Part shown: piece after piece, positions 4-46,470 of the stretch | Numbering within the stretch: position 1 is the stretch's first letter | Layout of the letters: the number at the start of each line of letters is the position of its first letter | Assembly (NCBI RefSeq): GCF_030159955.1 | Contig: NZ_BSNK01000002.1 | Location: 310,001 to 374,000, forward strand | DNA: 64,000 bases | Direction of reading: 5' to 3' | Source of the DNA: Algimonas ampicilliniresistens | Lineage (GTDB): Bacteria; Pseudomonadota; Alphaproteobacteria; Caulobacterales; Maricaulaceae | Notes under the pieces: model-generated | The model's input: the letters and a program-made list of their open reading frames with translations, nothing else | Told to the model about the DNA's origin: nothing | Database searches by the model: none | Position numbers and translations under genes: made by a program

Positions 4-372
4 GTGATTAAAATTGGCGGTGTTATTGCTGTCGGAACGGTGGTGCTCAGTTTCATTTTTTGGACCGTGACCCATTGGCGAAGAAAGGGTTCAGTCCGTG
101 CGCCTATTCGGGGAGCAATCGCAGGGCTGCTTACGGCGCTCTGTGTCATCCCGCTTCCGGTCTTTGCGTGGAAACTGAAATCGGATGTTCTGGCTGCCTA
201 TGCCAATGACCAAACTCACCTCATCGCCGCTTTTTTTGAGGCGCTGCCGGCCGCGATAGGGACGGGTCTGCTGACCTTTGAGGTCATGACCAAAGCGTCT
301 CTAATCGCCATGGTTCTCAGCGTGGGTCTTGGTTATTCTGTGTCGCGCTGGGGTCCGGACCGGGCCGTCTAA
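4..372 (+). CDS. Hypothetical multi-pass membrane protein (possibly 5' partial)
   Basis: This 122-codon frame opens with GTG at the very edge of the window, so the true start may lie upstream. The product is hydrophobic, with probable transmembrane helices near residues 4-22, 37-56 and 80-113 and a basic loop (HWRRKG) after the first helix. I recognise no family. Its 3' end overlaps the convergent avidin-like gene by 56 bp, which is unusual but credible because both frames look like genuine protein. Function unknown; an integral inner-membrane protein is all the sequence supports. Confidence 0.55.
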   Translation: MIKIGGVIAVGTVVLSFIFWTVTHWRRKGSVRAPIRGAIAGLLTALCVIPLPVFAWKLKSDVLAAYANDQTHLIAAFFEALPAAIGTGLLTFEVMTKASLIAMVLSVGLGYSVSRWGPDRAV

Positions 373-760
373 ACGTCGCCGCACCAGCCGTGATCGAGCG
401 CCAGAGATCTTCGATCTCATCCTCTTCCGCAATGTCGCGCGTATGCTGCCAGAGTGTACGAATGAACTCGCCCTCTTCGTCCGCGCTCAACTGACCCGAC
501 CAGCTCGTGATCGAGCCAAAGCTGGTAAAGTTGACAGAAAATGCCACCACATCGCCCTGCGCCCAACCCGTCAGAGCGAATTGACTCTCCGCATCAGGTT
601 TGCCGAGTTCCGTCTGATAATACCCGCTTAGTGAGCCGTCTTCAGCGACTGAGATTTGAACTGCCGACCCGGCTTCATTAATCCAGAGACCGTCTAGATC
701 GTTTGCATAAGCGGCTTCACACCCGCCTAGCAGGATGGCCATGAGGGCGATTTTACGCAT
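317..760 (-). CDS. Avidin/streptavidin-family secreted lipoprotein
   Basis: A 147-aa protein with a short signal sequence and lipobox-like LGGC (Cys14), followed by one avidin fold. Aligned by eye to streptavidin, it keeps the beta-1 motif WINEAGS (Asn28, Ser32 = N23, S27), GYYQT (Tyr48, Thr50 = Y43, S45), SITSW (Ser83, Thr85, Trp87 = S88, T90, W92), TLW (Trp104 = W108) and W..(S).TAGAATF (Trp120 = W120). Streptavidin W79 is replaced by Phe78 and the biotin ureido ligand D128 by Ala128. Avidins bind biotin outside the cytoplasm; weaker binding or another ligand is possible here. The ATG overlaps the nhaC stop by 8 bp, so the gene is probably translationally coupled to it. Confidence 0.85.
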   Translation of the reverse strand: MRKIALMAILLGGCEAAYANDLDGLWINEAGSAVQISVAEDGSLSGYYQTELGKPDAESQFALTGWAQGDVVAFSVNFTSFGSITSWSGQLSADEEGEFIRTLWQHTRDIAEEDEIEDLWRSITAGAATFRRPGPDPSATQNNQDPR

Positions 761-2309: not shown

Positions 2310-2501
2310 ATGAGTCAGCTATTCCGTAAAGAAGCGATGGAGCGACGGTCGCGCGCTTTATTCGGGGAGGTCGTGTTGCGTGGACCCTTACCCGCATGGG
2401 CTGTGATTGGACTACTTCTAGCCAGTTGTGGGCTCATCGCCGCAATTCTCTTTGGTATTCGCGTTGATGGCGAGACCGTCTGGACCTGGCTCAATGGCTA
2501 A
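2310..2501 (+). CDS. Truncated HlyD/CvaA-type membrane fusion protein (N-terminal stump)
   Basis: The 63-aa product starts like the CvaA/HlyD adaptor of bacteriocin exporters: MSQLFRKEAMERRS, then FGEVVLRGPLP, one transmembrane helix (about residues 27-49) and only 13 residues after it before the stop. The normal periplasmic hairpin and lipoyl/beta-barrel parts (about 350 residues) are absent and no remnant is visible, because the exporter gene starts at once. The ATG at 2310 follows AAAGGGGG at a 7-nt spacing, a strong ribosome-binding site, so the stump looks expressed. It probably contacts the ABC exporter in the membrane without bridging to an outer-membrane channel. It could instead be a decaying remnant. 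Confidence 0.65.
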   Translation: MSQLFRKEAMERRSRALFGEVVLRGPLPAWAVIGLLLASCGLIAAILFGIRVDGETVWTWLNG

Positions 2502-2517
2502 ATTTTTTGGGGCTGAT

Positions 2518-4596
2518 ATGTTCAAGCCAAAACTTCCAGTCATTCTTCAAACCGAAATGACGGAATGTGGCTTGGCCTGCCTTGCCATGGTGTCACGCTT
2601 TCACGGTCATGATGTCGACCTCAACAGTCTGCGCGAGAAATATTTACTCTCCATGCGCGGCACGTCGCTTAAGCAAATTATCAAGATCGCCGGCGAACTT
2701 TCGCTTTCGCCGCGCGCCTTGCGGGTTGATCTCGACCAACTTCATAAACTGGCCACACCTGCCATCCTGCATTGGGATCTGAACCATTTTGTCGTGTTGA
2801 AAGGTGTGCGCGGCGACCGCGTGGAAATCCACGATCCCGGCATTGGCAAACGGGTGCTTCCGCTCGCTAAGGTTTCCGACCATTTCACGGGCGTGGCGTT
2901 GGAATTGTCGCCTGCGGCCGAGTTTCAACCGATCACTGACCGTATTCGACCAAAACTGTCTGATCTCTGGTCATCACTGGTCGGGGCGAAGCGCGCTGTG
3001 GCGCAGACACTTCTTTTATCGCTGGCCCTGCTGGCGACCATCTTGATCTCTCCGTTTCTCTTCCAGCTGATCGTCGATGCCGTTCTGCCTTCGCCGCAAA
3101 CTCCGGACGGAGACCGTAGTCTGTTGATTGCGCTAGCCATTGGTTTTGGTGGATTGGCGGTCATGCGCGCACTTGTTGAAGCGGCGCGGGGCTACACAAT
3201 CGTGACCTTTGGCGCGCAGCTATCCCGGCAAATGGTCGGTAACATCTTCCGCCACCTGGTCCGCTTGCCTGTCCGTTATTTTGAGCGTCGCCATGTCGGC
3301 GACATTATTAGTCGGATGAATTCGACCCAGCCCATTCAGGAGGCTCTGAGCCAATCCGTTGTCGCAGTTCTGATTGATGGGGCGATGGCGCTACTCATGC
3401 TGGGCGTGATGATCCTGTTCTCGCCCCTGCTGGCGCTGATCGTCATCATAACGTCCGCTCTGCTCATGCTCGCCACTCTGCTGATTTACCCGAAACTGCG
3501 CAGCACGCAGGAAGAAGCTATCTATGCGCGCGCGCTGGAGAATAGCCATGTCATTGAAAGCATTCGCGCATCGACTACCGTCAAACTATTTGGGCGCGAA
3601 GCCGAACGCGAAGCCAGCTGGGCCAATCTGTTCACCGATTTCATCAATGCCGATGTGGGTCATCAGCGCTGGCAGGTGACGCAAACCTTTGCCCAAACTT
3701 TGATGATTGGCTTGCAGGTTGTGGCCGTCGTCGTAGCCGCCGCGTGGATGATGACCCAATCGGATTCCACCTTCACTGTGGGGATGCTCGTCGCCTTCTT
3801 GATTTATCGACAATATTTCGCTGACGCGGTGGTGCAGCTCGTCACCAAGGGCAATGAGTTCAGGTTGCTCTCGCTTCATCTCGACCGCTTGGCGGACATA
3901 GTTCACGCCGCACCGGAACGAGCGGCAGATGGCTATGAACCGCTCGGTGAGTTGAAGGGACGTGTGACGCTCGACCATGTCACTTTTGCCTATTCGCCCG
4001 AAGACCCGATTGTCGTGAAAGATTTTAGTTTGGACATCGCGCCCGGCGAAATGGTGACGCTGACCGGACCCTCTGGTGGCGGGAAGACCACGCTGATGAA
4101 GCTGATGCTGGGTCTGTATGCGCCCATTGAGGGCCAAGTGCAGGTCGATGGCCGCGATCTGACAACCATTGATCCGAACGATTGGCGAAGCCGCGTGGGC
4201 GTGGTCATGCAGGATGATCGGCTCCTATCGGGAACGATTGCGGATAATATCGCCTTCTTCGACCCAGAGATTGACATGCAGCGTGTCATGCGGGCGGCGA
4301 ACGCGGCGCGTATTCACGATACTATCGCGACGATCCCGATGAACTACCTCGCCTTGATCGGGGATATGGGGTCGATCTTATCGGGCGGTCAGAAGCAACG
4401 TCTTTTGCTGGCGCGCGCGCTCTATCAGCAGCCGGATGTGCTATTTCTCGATGAAGGAACAGCGAATTTGGATGTTGAAACTGAGGGCGAAATCGTTGCG
4501 CTTGTCGCTGGTTTGAAGATTACGCGGGTCATCGTCGCGCACAGGCCCGCCTTTTTGGAGGCGAGTGATCGCGTCATCCACGTGTCACAATCATAG
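2518..4596 (+). CDS. C39-peptidase-containing ABC exporter of a double-glycine peptide (PCAT)
   Basis: This 692-aa protein joins three domains. An N-terminal C39 peptidase (residues 1-125) has oxyanion Gln11, catalytic Cys17 in TECGLAC, His90 in NHFVVL and Asp106 in IHDP. A six-helix exporter domain follows (about 150-420). The ATPase has Walker A GPSGGGKTT near 517, signature LSGGQ near 621, Walker B VLFLDEG near 641 and an H-loop AHRP. Such proteins cut leaders after Gly-Gly and export the core peptide. The frame extends to 2428, but ATG 2518 (or 2494, overlapping the upstream stop) fits family starts. It is coupled to the HlyD stump and followed about 200 bp later by a matching leader-peptide gene. 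Confidence 0.92.
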   Translation: MFKPKLPVILQTEMTECGLACLAMVSRFHGHDVDLNSLREKYLLSMRGTSLKQIIKIAGELSLSPRALRVDLDQLHKLATPAILHWDLNHFVVLKGVRGDRVEIHDPGIGKRVLPLAKVSDHFTGVALELSPAAEFQPITDRIRPKLSDLWSSLVGAKRAVAQTLLLSLALLATILISPFLFQLIVDAVLPSPQTPDGDRSLLIALAIGFGGLAVMRALVEAARGYTIVTFGAQLSRQMVGNIFRHLVRLPVRYFERRHVGDIISRMNSTQPIQEALSQSVVAVLIDGAMALLMLGVMILFSPLLALIVIITSALLMLATLLIYPKLRSTQEEAIYARALENSHVIESIRASTTVKLFGREAEREASWANLFTDFINADVGHQRWQVTQTFAQTLMIGLQVVAVVVAAAWMMTQSDSTFTVGMLVAFLIYRQYFADAVVQLVTKGNEFRLLSLHLDRLADIVHAAPERAADGYEPLGELKGRVTLDHVTFAYSPEDPIVVKDFSLDIAPGEMVTLTGPSGGGKTTLMKLMLGLYAPIEGQVQVDGRDLTTIDPNDWRSRVGVVMQDDRLLSGTIADNIAFFDPEIDMQRVMRAANAARIHDTIATIPMNYLALIGDMGSILSGGQKQRLLLARALYQQPDVLFLDEGTANLDVETEGEIVALVAGLKITRVIVAHRPAFLEASDRVIHVSQS

Positions 4597-4616
4597 TTAA
4601 CATAAAATTTATCTGC

Positions 4617-4648
4617 AACTTGTAAGAGAACTTGTCTTTAAAACTTGT
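4617..4648 (+). promoter_or_regulatory. Three AACTTGT direct repeats upstream of the leader-peptide gene
   Basis: AACTTGT occurs at 4617-4623, 4629-4635 and 4642-4648, spaced 12 and 13 bp. A possible -10 element, TACAAT, lies at 4674-4679 with no good -35 box, which would suit activator-dependent transcription from sites placed upstream. The same core appears in the exporter operon promoter region at 2256-2263. The 207-bp intergenic stretch is AT-rich compared with its neighbours. Confidence 0.5.
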
Positions 4649-4803
4649 TCAGCGTGTTGGGAACCGATGCATTTACAATGCGTTAACTATGATAAGTGCC
4701 ATTTCGAGCCATTTTTCGCTTGAGGCACGTACTGACGATTTGCTTAGGTCGTCATCCGTGATCGGAATCCTCCGGTTGCGTCACACAAAGAGGATCAACA
4801 CAC

Positions 4804-4878
4804 ATGCGTGAACTCACTGTTGAAGAACTCGAAGTCGTCACCGGTGGCCTGCCCATCGTTATTGACGGCGAGTGGTAG
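4804..4878 (+). CDS. Double-glycine leader peptide precursor, 24 aa with 9-residue core
   Basis: This short frame encodes the leader MRELTVEELEVVTGG followed by the core LPIVIDGEW and a stop. The leader matches the class recognised by C39 peptidases: M-R-E-L-T, hydrophobics at the -4, -7 and -12 style positions (Val, Leu, Leu) and Gly-Gly before the cut. GAGGA lies about 9 nt before the ATG and a strong terminator follows 44 bp after the stop, making a compact monocistronic unit. Nine residues is very short for a bacteriocin and closer to a signalling peptide. The core is acidic and hydrophobic, with no Cys, Ser or Thr for lanthionine or disulfide modification. It lies between a C39 exporter and a sensor kinase. 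Confidence 0.8.
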   Translation: MRELTVEELEVVTGGLPIVIDGEW

Positions 4879-4922
4879 ACACTCTGGCAGCTAAGGCTGC
4901 CCCCTGAATATGTGGACGCAAA

Positions 4923-4946
4923 CCCGCTCTCAGAGCGGGTTTTTTT
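4923..4946 (+). terminator. Rho-independent terminator of the leader-peptide gene
   Basis: CCCGCTC (4923-4929), loop TCA, GAGCGGG (4933-4939), then seven T residues (4940-4946). It separates the peptide gene from the histidine kinase, which therefore needs its own promoter or read-through. Confidence 0.9.
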
Positions 4947-5030
4947 ATGGCCGCAAACGGCTCGCCTTCCCAAAAACGAAGATACGCTTCCTTAAGGCAA
5001 ACATCGTATCAGACTGTCATTGGGACCGAT

Positions 5031-7706
5031 GTGACTACAGCTCTGCGATATCTCCTTCTAGCGACCCTCATAGCCATAGGGTTACCCATGACAGTGTGGG
5101 CGCAGCAAGCCGAGCCCTATTCGACCGACTCCGTTCTCCAATTTTTTGAACAAACGCAGACCCTTCCGGCTCCGGATCAGGTCCAAAAGGTTGAAATCGA
5201 GAGCCGCTCGGTCGCCCTCATGGATGACGTCATCGAGTCTGTTGCGAATAATGACGTCGAACGTCTCTCAGCAGCCATCAAAAAAGCGCGAGGTCTTCAG
5301 GGTGTCAATGAAAGCGATTGGCCAACTGCGCTTCGTCTCGCCGAAGGTGTTCTTGAGGCTCTAAATTCGACAACGGAGTCCAGAAATAGCGATCAGCTCC
5401 TCCAATTCCTTGATGATTTCGACGCGCAAGGGAACTGGTATGTCCAGTCTTTGGCTCAGAGTATCTCGGGATACATCTTTATTACGCGCAATCAGCTTCT
5501 CGTCGCAGCCCGTTACATCGATGACGCAATGCAACTCATCCCAACCGAACTGTCTGACCGTGTAACCAATGCGCGACTTCGGACGTCGGACATCTCGATG
5601 ATTCTACATGGCGCGCAGGGCAATCCTCAGTTCCTTCTGGAAGCCGCAAAAGTGCAGCGCGACGTCAAGGCTGAGATTGGCGAGACGATCAATCGCTATG
5701 AATTGATGACAAATTTTGTGTTCACGCTCAACCGGGTCCGGGATTTTGAAGGGGCCGCCAAAATTGCCGAATTATTAGTCCTAGAAGACCGTCCCGAAGA
5801 CAGTCTTCCGGGCCTCGCTGAAGGCTATATGGCAGAAACGTTCAACGAATTGCACGATTACGCCAGAGCCCGACAATTGTCCGAGCGCGCCCTAGCCTTG
5901 TCCGAATATCCAGTGGTCGTGACACGCGCCAATTATATGTTGGTCGTCGCCCTCGCCGGCTTAGGGCGGGAAGATGAAGCCCATGCCATCATGGATGAAC
6001 AGGGGTGGGACCATGACCATGACGCGCTGCTAACCCAGATTAACGCGCAGGCGATCCTGCATGCCGAAGCATTACTCGCCATGCATCGAAGCGACCCGAA
6101 ATTTGCCTTGTCGCTAATGAAGCGCCGCACCGACCTTCTGGTTCAGCGCGTTCAGCGCTCCAACTCCGCCGACATGACCTCCTTGTTGAGCAATCTAGAG
6201 AACACGCGCGAACGTCAGTCTGAACGCGAGAGCGCCATTCAACGTGAGGCCGAATTAAGAGCAGTTCAGCTTGAGCAGAAAACGAATTTGAACAGATTAC
6301 TTTGGGCGTTGATCGCTGTGCTCACTATCGCCTTCAATCTGCTGCTCGCCTTCCTGCGTTACCGCGAACGTCTCAGCGGCAAGGTTCAGGGACTACAGAA
6401 AGACGCGCTGTCTGCCGAGAAGATGAAAACGGAATTCCTCGGCGTCATCAATCATGAACTGCGCACGCCGCTGAACGGCATCATCGGGATCAGCGACGCC
6501 ATGATTCATCATGCCAAAGATCCGACGATGCAGGCTCAAGCGTCCGCCGTGCAGGAAAGTGGTCAGCTCCTCTTCGATCTACTTGATAGCCTGATCACCA
6601 TGTCGACCATTGAAGGCAATCGACTGACGCTCGAAACGGAAGCGGCTAACCTGTCCAAGGCGATCGCGAATGAAGCTCAAGATTGGGCCGCACCGGCTGA
6701 GAAAAAAGGGCTTACATTCACAACCTTCATCGCGCCTGAACTAAGCGAAACAGTGATCGCAGACGAAAAGCGTCTACGCCAATGCGTCCGCTTCATGCTC
6801 TCCAATGCGGTGCGCTTTACGCATGATGGCCGCATACATCTTCATGCGACAGCAGCACCGGATGCCGAAGGTGATTTGGCTGTCAAAATCATCGTCGCCG
6901 ATACAGGTCAGGGCATGAGTGAGGACGTGCAGTCCCGCCTCTTCAAACCCTTCTTGCAAGCCGATGCGATGATGACACGCAAATATGGTGGTGCAGGCCT
7001 GAGCCTCGCAATCGGACGTAAGCTCGCCCGTATGATGGATGGTGATCTTGATGTGACATCCCGCGAAGGCGCGGGATCAGAGTTTGTGCTGACTGCCAAA
7101 CTCCCCATCGCCACCCCCGTAGCAGCAACCAAAGCAGCAACCAAAGCAGCCAAATCTAACTCTGCTGAAATCCACCCTATAAAAGTAGAGAAGACCTCTG
7201 CCGTTCCACCTCAAACTTTAGGATCTGTGCCAACGCTCATCTTGGACGATGTTGTCGAACCGGAAGAGATCATCGACTTGATGCTAGAAGAACAACTCTT
7301 TAGCCCGCCGGCCGGTTCTGAGACCCGTATGACTGTTCTTCTCGGTGATGATGGCGGCGTACAAACTCAAGACCTGCGGTCATCCCTCCAAGATTTGGGA
7401 TGTCGTTGTGTTCAAGCCGAGACGAGCCCTCAGCTTCTCAAGCGATTGGACGACCGCCAAATTGATGTCGTCATGCTGAACGTGCAGCTATCCGGTCTAG
7501 ACGCCGTCGATACGATTGTGGAAATTCGCCAACGCAGCGATCAAGGCTATCCCATACTGATTGTCGGTCTCGTTGCTGATGAAAGTCCGGCGATAAAGGC
7601 CAAGCTGTTCTCAGCCGGTGCAGACTTATTGCTTGATCTCCCGCTCAAGCCAAACCGCTTGGCTGATGCGTTGCAACAGGCCCGGTCGCTCCGCACGGCC
7701 GCTTAA
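5031..7706 (+). CDS. Periplasmic-sensing hybrid histidine kinase with degenerate receiver
   Basis: I choose GTG 5031 (891 aa), because the frame opening at ATG 4947 sits on the terminator T-run and would place 28 polar residues ahead of the signal sequence. In 891-aa numbering there is a signal peptide ending VWA|Q near 24, a large helical TPR-like periplasmic domain (to about 400), a coiled coil, one transmembrane helix (423-442), HisKA with His475 in INHELRTPLNG, and an HATPase with NAVRF, DTGQGMS and GGAGLSL. The C-terminal receiver-like domain has Asp773/Asp774 and Lys873 but Asn817 in place of the phosphorylated Asp (MLNVQLSG). No response-regulator gene adjoins. The peptide exported next door is a plausible ligand, by inference. 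Confidence 0.85.
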   Translation: MTTALRYLLLATLIAIGLPMTVWAQQAEPYSTDSVLQFFEQTQTLPAPDQVQKVEIESRSVALMDDVIESVANNDVERLSAAIKKARGLQGVNESDWPTALRLAEGVLEALNSTTESRNSDQLLQFLDDFDAQGNWYVQSLAQSISGYIFITRNQLLVAARYIDDAMQLIPTELSDRVTNARLRTSDISMILHGAQGNPQFLLEAAKVQRDVKAEIGETINRYELMTNFVFTLNRVRDFEGAAKIAELLVLEDRPEDSLPGLAEGYMAETFNELHDYARARQLSERALALSEYPVVVTRANYMLVVALAGLGREDEAHAIMDEQGWDHDHDALLTQINAQAILHAEALLAMHRSDPKFALSLMKRRTDLLVQRVQRSNSADMTSLLSNLENTRERQSERESAIQREAELRAVQLEQKTNLNRLLWALIAVLTIAFNLLLAFLRYRERLSGKVQGLQKDALSAEKMKTEFLGVINHELRTPLNGIIGISDAMIHHAKDPTMQAQASAVQESGQLLFDLLDSLITMSTIEGNRLTLETEAANLSKAIANEAQDWAAPAEKKGLTFTTFIAPELSETVIADEKRLRQCVRFMLSNAVRFTHDGRIHLHATAAPDAEGDLAVKIIVADTGQGMSEDVQSRLFKPFLQADAMMTRKYGGAGLSLAIGRKLARMMDGDLDVTSREGAGSEFVLTAKLPIATPVAATKAATKAAKSNSAEIHPIKVEKTSAVPPQTLGSVPTLILDDVVEPEEIIDLMLEEQLFSPPAGSETRMTVLLGDDGGVQTQDLRSSLQDLGCRCVQAETSPQLLKRLDDRQIDVVMLNVQLSGLDAVDTIVEIRQRSDQGYPILIVGLVADESPAIKAKLFSAGADLLLDLPLKPNRLADALQQARSLRTAA

Positions 7707-8284: not shown

Positions 8285-9453
8285 ATGGATCGGCGATCTA
8301 ATATGAAATGGCTGTCCGTCGCAGTGACAGCGACATGGCTCACTGCCTGCCTTGAAGCGCAACCAGCGCCTGACCTTCCGACCCGCACCATATCAGATTT
8401 TCAGTTGGAGACTGTCGTCGACGGTCTGGAGCGACCTTGGGCAGTGGCAAGCTTGCCAGAGGGCGGCTATCTCATAACAGGAAAACTGGGCAAGCTCTGG
8501 CGGATCGAGTCTGGCACGGCGCGAGAAATTGAGAATCTTCCGATGGAGATCGGGGCTTTTGCTGGAAACCGTGTCGCTGAAGGCGGGCAAGGTGGACTAT
8601 TGGATGTCGCGCTCGCGCCTGATTTTGCGACCAGCGGTGAGATTTATCTATCCTATGCCTATGGCAATTGGAACGCCAACGGCACAGCGCTTCTTCGTGC
8701 CTACTTGGATGGCGACCGAATTGTTTCGTCGGAGACGGTTTTCCGAGTTAGTCCCGCCAAAGCAGCGGGAAGTCACTTCGGCGGCAAAATTCTGTTCTTG
8801 AACGATGGCACGCTGCTGCTCAGTCTCGGGGACGGCTTCTCGCTGCGCGAAGAAGCACAAAAGCCTGCCTCCATCTCGGCTCCATTGTCCGCCTCACGCG
8901 CGATGGCGGCACGCCGACTGATAATCCCAATTTCGGCGACGCGGCCAAGCCGCAACTGTTCAGCATCGGTCACCGCAATGTTCAGGGCTTGGCATTAGAT
9001 TCGGTCACCGGAGCCATCTGGGAACATGAACATGGGCCGCGCGGCGGGGACGAGCTGAACCAACTGGAAGCGGGCGCCAATTATGGCTGGCCGATCGTGA
9101 CCTATGGGCGTGATTATCAAGGCGCCCGCATCAGCCCGATTGAAGAGGATGCGCGCTTTACTGGACCGGTCCATCATTGGACGCCGTCCATCGCGCCGTC
9201 GGGCCTCGCCATATATCGCGGCGATTTGTTTGCCGACTGGAACGGACACGCACTGATCGGGGGTCTGGCATCGGGCGACCTACGCCGCGTCGACCCGGAG
9301 ACGGGCGAAGAAGTGATCTTGCTGAGCGATGCCAAGACGGAAACTGATCCATTCCGCGTCCGTGATGTAGACATTGATACGGACGGGGCCGTTCTGCTGC
9401 TCATCGAAGACGGCACCAATGGTCGCCTGATTCGGATGACGCCTGGCGGCTAA
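8285..9453 (+). pseudogene. PQQ-type glucose/sorbosone dehydrogenase-like lipoprotein, frameshifted
   Basis: Two frames together make one soluble aldose sugar dehydrogenase-like beta-propeller (YliI/GSDH family). The first has a lipoprotein signal (LTAC, Cys22) and RPWAVASLPEGGYLIT, GGLLDVALAPDF and LSLGDG. The second has FSIGHRNVQGLAL, HEHGPRGGDELN, GANYGWP and PSIAPSGLAIY, the last block being typical of the family. Frame is lost near 8868-8873: reading resumes as HLGSIVRLTRDGG one base out, consistent with a single missing base after the Lys-Pro-Ala codons. AGGAG precedes the 8285 ATG. Both halves are otherwise intact, so a sequencing error or very recent mutation is as likely as an old pseudogene. 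Confidence 0.8.
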
Positions 9454-45882: not shown

Positions 45883-46470
45883 ATGAGAGACACGTTGGCA
45901 GACACAAGGGCTTTAACGCCAGAAAATACAATTGAATCAGTCCGTTCACGCCCTATCGCGCTCGTCGGCTTGATGGGTGTGGGCAAAACAACCGTCGGGC
46001 GGCGTCTGGCTAAATCCCTCGAACGCGACTTTTTCGACTCAGATGAAGAGATTGAACGTGCGTCTGGACGCACTGTTGCGGGCTATTTTCGCGATCATGG
46101 TGAAGCGGCCTTTCGCGACGGGGAACGCCGCGTGGTCGAGCGCCTGCTGATGGAGCCCAATATTGTCATGGCAACGGGCGGGGGGGCCTTCATCCATCCG
46201 GAAACGCATGAATTGTTGAAGTCGCGTGCGCTTGTCATCTGGCTAAAGGGAGATTTTGAAACCCTGATGGAGCGGGTCTCGCGGAAGAATACGCGACCCT
46301 TGCTGCAAGTGCCTGACCCCCGCGCCCGGATGCGTGAACTGATGGAAGAGCGCGAACCGATCTATGCACGCGCCCATATCACTGTCACGGTTGCTAAAGG
46401 CCCGCACACACGAACGGTCGGACGGATCGAACGCGCGTTAGACGCCTATGAGGTCCCCAAAAATGGATGA
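45883..46470 (+). CDS. aroK: Shikimate kinase
   Basis: The 195-aa kinase phosphorylates shikimate in aromatic amino-acid synthesis. It has the P-loop GLMGVGKTTVGRRLAKSL (residues 29-46), DSDEEIERASGRTV, GEAAFRDGERRVVE and GGGAFIHPET. The start at ATG 45883 gives an N-terminal tail of some 20 residues. Its stop overlaps the aroB start by 8 bp. Confidence 0.95.
   Translation: MRDTLADTRALTPENTIESVRSRPIALVGLMGVGKTTVGRRLAKSLERDFFDSDEEIERASGRTVAGYFRDHGEAAFRDGERRVVERLLMEPNIVMATGGGAFIHPETHELLKSRALVIWLKGDFETLMERVSRKNTRPLLQVPDPRARMRELMEEREPIYARAHITVTVAKGPHTRTVGRIERALDAYEVPKNG

Follow-up and report, generated by a model that had tools for sequence, protein, structure and literature searches.

What does a gene of 24 codons do between a peptide exporter and a sensor kinase in a Gram-negative bacterium? 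The question is raised by a 64,000-nt stretch of the genome of Algimonas ampicilliniresistens (contig NZ_BSNK01000002.1, positions 310,001 to 374,000; hereafter the window, with positions counted from its first letter), in which an HlyD-like stump, a C39-peptidase ABC exporter, the 24-codon gene and a hybrid histidine kinase follow one another on the forward strand between 2310 and 7706. Our favoured answer, to which we give odds of about two in three, is a peptide-ligand signalling cassette, whose short core peptide would be exported to the periplasm and sensed there by a receptor kinase resembling the RRNPP peptide receptors. The genes, their conservation and co-occurrence, the leaderless and repeated forms of the core and the predicted receptor fold were established directly in this study.

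The initial annotation of the window described a double-glycine peptide gene with its own ribosome-binding site and terminator, and all of these elements stand. The open reading frame (ORF) at 4804-4878 encodes the double-glycine (GG) leader MRELTVEELEVVTGG (4804-4848), delimited by sequence and by conservation across loci, followed by the core LPIVIDGEW, delimited by core comparison (4849-4878, with the stop codon). The ribosome-binding site AGAGG lies at 4789-4793, and a block rich in G/A is found at -12 to -9 of the peptide start across 33 loci. An intrinsic terminator, consisting of a perfect hairpin and a T-run (4922-4948), separates the peptide gene from that of the kinase; terminator-like hairpins occur within 160 nt 3′ of the peptide in 28 of 33 loci, versus 13 of 330 coding control windows. 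The leader motif is found in a single additional ORF of the window, at 46132, which does not resemble a leader peptide, and no second peptide match was found at an expectation value (E) of 10 in the 3.26-Mb genome (99.65% complete). Leader variability at codon positions 1, 2 and 3 is 0.186, 0.055 and 0.317 (33 loci), and leader codons unlike those of the window comprise 135 synonymous and 104 non-synonymous cases; by these measures the leader is under constraint as a protein.

The mini-peptide gene accompanies the stump-bearing exporter at every readable locus in the window's family. A C39-domain search of 138 genomes of that family gave matches in 68, and 78 stretches were fetched around the matches, three distant ones being left out. 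Forty-four loci, window included, were selected for carrying an HlyD stump (63-108 aa from the first ATG) directly before the exporter. The contig ends ahead of the peptide in eight of them; in all 36 that are readable, a GG-type leader lies beside stump and exporter. Thirty-three of these leaders are whole, typically of the form MR[ED]L...GG; locus L091 has GA in place of GG (core GPVIDW), the leader of L098 is at a contig end, with the core IPIVINF read on contig L180 of the same genome, and that of L074 is cut by the contig end after MRELTLEEIEVV. Wherever a locus reaches far enough, the next large ORF beyond exporter and peptide encodes the sensor kinase.

The same association appears when the search starts from the kinase. 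A sensor profile (A1), built from 30 sensor domains and applied to genomes at E 1e-10, finds the kinase in 44 of the 138 genomes, and in all 40 with readable upstream DNA (it is missing in G047, G058, G048 and G007) the mini-peptide gene lies directly before the kinase. Core and kinase were never found apart in this group wherever both sides could be read. The observed cassette is real and more than chance. At the level of the order (399 genomes sampled) the best sensor match outside the family has E 3e-25, and in a class sample of 385 genomes the window's own was the only one matched at E 1e-10. No mini gene was found by 13 of 14 loci of weakly related kinases outside the family (families f3-f5), these 14 being the ones examined among many weak sensor-profile matches; the sensor family is therefore wider than the pair. 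Relatives that keep exporter and kinase but lack the peptide, named at the outset as a result that would count against the idea, were absent among the 36 readable loci, and both the 4804 frame and its Gly-Gly site are conserved. The expectation that stump, peptide and kinase co-occur was borne out in part: every readable stump locus has the leader, but stump and exporter are absent from some pairs.

Four of the 40 peptide-kinase pairs, representing three lineages, have no exporter in the fetched stretch, and three of these four are leaderless. In L178 (G005) clpB is followed by a GG-leader precursor with a triple repeat of SGPVIIET and then the kinase, while L208 (G006, same genus) has the leaderless MTKNPIIIG at the same place. 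In L177 (G049, the window's genus) the order is NhaC, MRGPIIIL, kinase: neither stump nor exporter remains, the peptide gene still has ATG-CGT, a core and a terminator, and no C39 match was found in the genome. L190 (G023) has MSIRKQPIVDF ahead of a very divergent kinase. Dinucleotide-type shuffling of the intergenic DNA yielded a core-like mini ORF in 35 of 4000 trials for L177 and 3 of 4000 for L208. A core-blind scan of 14 weakly related kinase loci by size, ribosome-binding site and terminator returned MSIRKQPIVDF alone; the scan is leaky, recovering 21 of 32 known peptides (two more with an upstream start), reporting eight tiny ORFs beyond its own count and picking up some tiny ORF, never one with the core, in 22 of 199 control stretches. 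Trees put L177, L178 with L208, and L190 at three separate positions, the placement of L190, on a long branch, being uncertain. Exporter loss is likely at L177, since it sits among exporter-bearing loci; for L208 and L190, loss and original absence of the leader are indistinguishable. Given these four pairs, three of them leaderless, leader and exporter seem dispensable for the association of peptide and kinase. The link between the two, at first drawn from adjacency only, is thereby strengthened.

The cores themselves are alike. The core or repeat unit has 5-9 residues in 39 of 41 loci (11 in L072 and 31 in L097), far shorter than a bacteriocin, as had been remarked for the window. Pro occupies position 2 or 3 in 36 of 41, the start of the core in leaderless genes having been set by us, and there are 39 distinct sequences, of which APIIVDF, LPIVIDF, NPIVIDF and FPIIIG are typical. 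Eight precursors contain two to four identical copies (FPIIIG x3, RSIKT x4, FPIDIEV x2, IPVIDF x4, TPIDIEL x3, LPADIEW x4, SGPVIIET x3 and LPIDIEV x3), with short spacers or none and with the final copy ending at the stop codon. The copies show 95 codon differences, all synonymous (a pairwise sum, so not independent, over units picked as identical peptides), and no decayed copy was found in these eight precursors. Because the copies differ only synonymously and none has decayed, the short peptide itself is, on this evidence, the selected product. Spacers frequently end in small residues (ATA, GKA, TSA or VSA, as in L116, L104, L088 and L114), suggestive of a second cleavage, by a protease favouring such residues.

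Upstream of the peptide, the stump (2310-2501, 63 aa from the ATG at 2310 to the stop) has a single transmembrane segment, resembles the HlyD N-terminus and lacks the periplasmic adaptor domain, so the missing bridge noted in the initial annotation is confirmed. So is the catalytic triad of the exporter, a peptidase-containing ABC transporter (PCAT; 2518-4596) with C39 (Pfam PF03412, E 5e-35), ABC membrane and ATPase domains: read from the ATG at 2518 and aligned with its family, it has C17, H90 and D106 intact, as have all 44 stump-bearing loci. Its C39 domain gives one match in its own genome at E 0.001. The exporters with a stump group in a single clade (39 of the 79 tree rows; Shimodaira-Hasegawa-like approximate likelihood ratio 99). 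The sister group has seven exporters without a stump, five of them preceded by an HlyD-like frame of 406-412 aa; HlyD truncation and mini-peptide, as far as sequences can tell, therefore go together. A non-stump exporter outside the clade (L143, genome G130) has on the opposite strand MRELTINEMEQVSGG followed by the 6-residue core IVNMAG.

Downstream, the kinase gene occupies 5031-7706. The GTG at 5031 is a likelier start than the listed 4947, since the latter sits within the terminator T-run. The protein has a signal-like N-terminus, a sensor domain, one transmembrane segment with some 400 residues ahead of it, and HisKA, HATPase and receiver domains, in agreement with the large periplasmic domain first proposed. 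A signal-like N-terminus is predicted in all 33 kinases examined, and in the 27 sequences extending to the His box a transmembrane segment is predicted between sensor domain and HisKA; the sensor domain is accordingly a predicted periplasmic one, where an RRNPP receptor is cytoplasmic. Its AlphaFold model (5100-6287, modelled from 5052) is a tetratricopeptide repeat (TPR) superhelix, our proposed peptide receptor, with a predicted local distance difference test score of 87.6 and a predicted template modelling score of 0.81. A profile match to consensus TPR has E 1.4e-5, and Pfam TPR models match a minority of 30 sensor-domain members. The Foldseek list is itself mixed, with RRNPP, Tom71, designed TPR, COPI and LGN entries; in a second look at its PDB matches with VIA-align, the sole method placing RRNPP first, the eleven best were Rap/NprR pheromone receptors.

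Cleavage, export, binding and signalling are the steps we infer for a signalling cassette of this kind. The C39 domain would cut the short precursor after Gly-Gly, and the PCAT would move the linear core of 5-9 residues across the inner membrane, with the HlyD stump serving as an accessory subunit and not as a bridge to the outer membrane. Once in the periplasm, the core would dock into the TPR groove of the adjacent kinase, in a manner akin to that of Phr, NprX and arbitrium peptides in their RRNPP receptors, and so alter kinase or phosphatase activity, the receiver domain feeding a phosphorelay. Each transcript of a multi-copy precursor would deliver a larger dose, and a second cleavage, within the spacers, would be required.

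Where such a peptide goes after export matters for what it signals. It may stay in the cell, its periplasmic level reporting exporter activity, energy state or envelope condition to the kinase; it would then never leave the cell and therefore be an autocrine timer, not a population signal. The stump lacks an adaptor domain that could connect to an outer-membrane channel, the sensor faces the periplasm by prediction, and the five computed core masses (573 to 1042 Da, MH+, with LPIVIDGEW at 1041.56) are near or above the porin limit. On the other hand, cores this small might slip through porins, the genome encodes elsewhere one full type I HlyD along with several outer-membrane channel proteins, and the fast-diverging sensor would fit communication equally well. 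A private signal is compatible with the stump and a periplasmic receptor, and escape is compatible with the small size of the core; we consider confinement to the cell rather unlikely, though it is the rival that survives best.

Several results weigh against a signalling cassette with an RRNPP-like receptor. TPR is a common fold, and the RRNPP matches lead LGN by about 2 in Z, at a root-mean-square deviation of 5-6 Å. Asn221 is present too in eight of ten related kinases without the peptide (alignment A2), no output gene is common to the ORFs after the kinase in the 11 loci examined, the L097 precursor has its odd 31-residue core, and the leaderless forms, each resting on a single assembly, have no known export route. 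In all 325 pairs compared, the sensor domains are more diverged (27% mean identity) than the exporter (66%) and the kinase core (45%), a behaviour common among sensors. Core distance is nevertheless unrelated to sensor distance (Mantel r -0.03, p 0.62; 26 of 40 loci; partial r negative) and weakly tracks kinase core (r 0.19, p 0.008) and exporter (r 0.16, p 0.026). Since core distances do not track sensor distances, coevolution of core and sensor for specificity, which we considered, is unsupported by the plain and partial Mantel tests.

That the core motif is conserved while the sensor diverges, with no coevolution, and that pairing is strict even without the exporter, would also be expected if the peptide were built into the kinase as a structural ligand or partner subunit that the kinase needs to fold or to have basal activity, with no role as a variable signal. 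A dedicated exporter, a separate terminator and multi-copy precursors, which suggest regulated dosage, make this improbable. A small microcin-like antimicrobial, with the kinase sensing envelope damage or giving self-protection, is very unlikely: a double-glycine leader with a C39 exporter is the usual bacteriocin export pair, and a longer GG peptide lies beside two of the seven sister exporters (L110 and L111), but in place of a long core and an immunity gene we find cores of 5-9 residues, no additional large gene separating exporter from kinase, identical-copy repeats, and leaderless cores beside a kinase alone. Least credible of all is a mini ORF acting as an RNA or kinase attenuator whose peptide is unimportant, since the terminator and the modest upstream hairpin that would favour it are set against leader codon-position bias, repeats differing only synonymously and core-like leaderless mini ORFs where the exporter is absent.

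That upstream hairpin is short, lies at 4757-4780 in the window and recurs some 25-45 nt 5′ of the peptide start in other loci; its signal has a mean z of -1.25 and falls below -1.5 in 13 of 33, and the hairpin might serve to stabilise the mini mRNA or to regulate it. Directly after the kinase, seven loci of one genus (L081, L084, L086, L090, L092, L095 and L096) and L097 have similar ORFs, 271-288 aa in most and cut short in L092, which look like a PhzF-type isomerase. An NhaC-type antiporter gene flanks the cassette in near relatives; in the window, the end of such a gene is overlapped by that of a small avidin-family protein (317-757, reverse strand; Pfam E 2.4e-21). A glucose/sorbosone dehydrogenase gene at 8285-9453 is split over two frames (profile 1-144, then 186-332), a frameshift that is either real or a sequencing error.

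According to PMC10075063, peptide quorum sensing is mainly described in Firmicutes, Proteobacteria typically using enzyme-made small molecules. No description of a system like the present one was found in the open-access full-text literature, judged by titles and abstract openings, with subscription papers and most preprints outside its coverage. The conserved gene pair, usually with its dedicated exporter, suggests an undescribed form of Gram-negative peptide signalling. More tentatively, and at slightly less than even odds, the cassettes may represent a separate class of Gram-negative peptide communication, with unmodified pheromones of 5-9 residues, sometimes in tandem copies and sometimes leaderless, perceived without re-import by periplasmic RRNPP-like TPR histidine kinases. 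If so, a ribosomal mini-pheromone and its receptor kinase across a whole family of marine Alphaproteobacteria related to Caulobacter would break the division between Firmicutes and Proteobacteria. Genes of 8 to 24 codons would readily be overlooked in annotation. Natural test material is at hand in the 39 distinct cores, the exporter-less loci and the leaderless versions.

Among known systems, type I secretion and microcin export (PCAT, HlyD and TolC) share the C39 PCAT and the HlyD N-terminus, but where they have a full periplasmic adaptor the window has a single-TM stump of 63 aa, and the substrate is a mini-peptide. The RaxX-RaxABC-RaxHR system of Xanthomonas also unites a GG-leader peptide, a PCAT and two-component genes in a Gram-negative; RaxX is a long sulfated peptide exported with full HlyD and TolC, in contrast to the mini-peptide and HlyD stump here. 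ComABCDE and class II bacteriocin induction in Gram-positives share GG leader, C39 exporter and histidine kinase receptor, but their pheromones have about 17-27 residues and their kinases are polytopic and lack a TPR domain, whereas here the peptides have 5-9 residues and the sensor is a predicted periplasmic TPR domain. HetC of Nostoc is likewise a Gram-negative PCAT whose C39 domain is active; a role in the export of regulatory peptides has been suggested for it, its substrate being unproven (PMC10986499); no TPR kinase partner is mentioned in the available parts of that report. RRNPP systems are presented in PMC10075063 for Gram-positive Firmicutes and their mobile elements. The likeness to RRNPP(A) (Rap-Phr, NprR-NprX, PlcR-PapR, AimR-arbitrium) lies in a TPR superhelix, here predicted and placed by second-look PDB matches, in a conserved Asn in a TPR helix A, and in a short linear peptide encoded beside its receptor, here in 40 of 40 readable genomes. 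The systems differ in that here the receptor is a membrane histidine kinase with a predicted periplasmic TPR domain and not a cytoplasmic regulator, that the peptide would not be re-imported, that export would be by GG/C39 in place of Sec or PptAB, and that the host is Gram-negative. The cassette would operate in the manner of an RRNPP pair coupled to an exporter of the ComAB type, yet it belongs to neither group: for a receptor it has a histidine kinase predicted to be periplasmic, and for an HlyD a stump.
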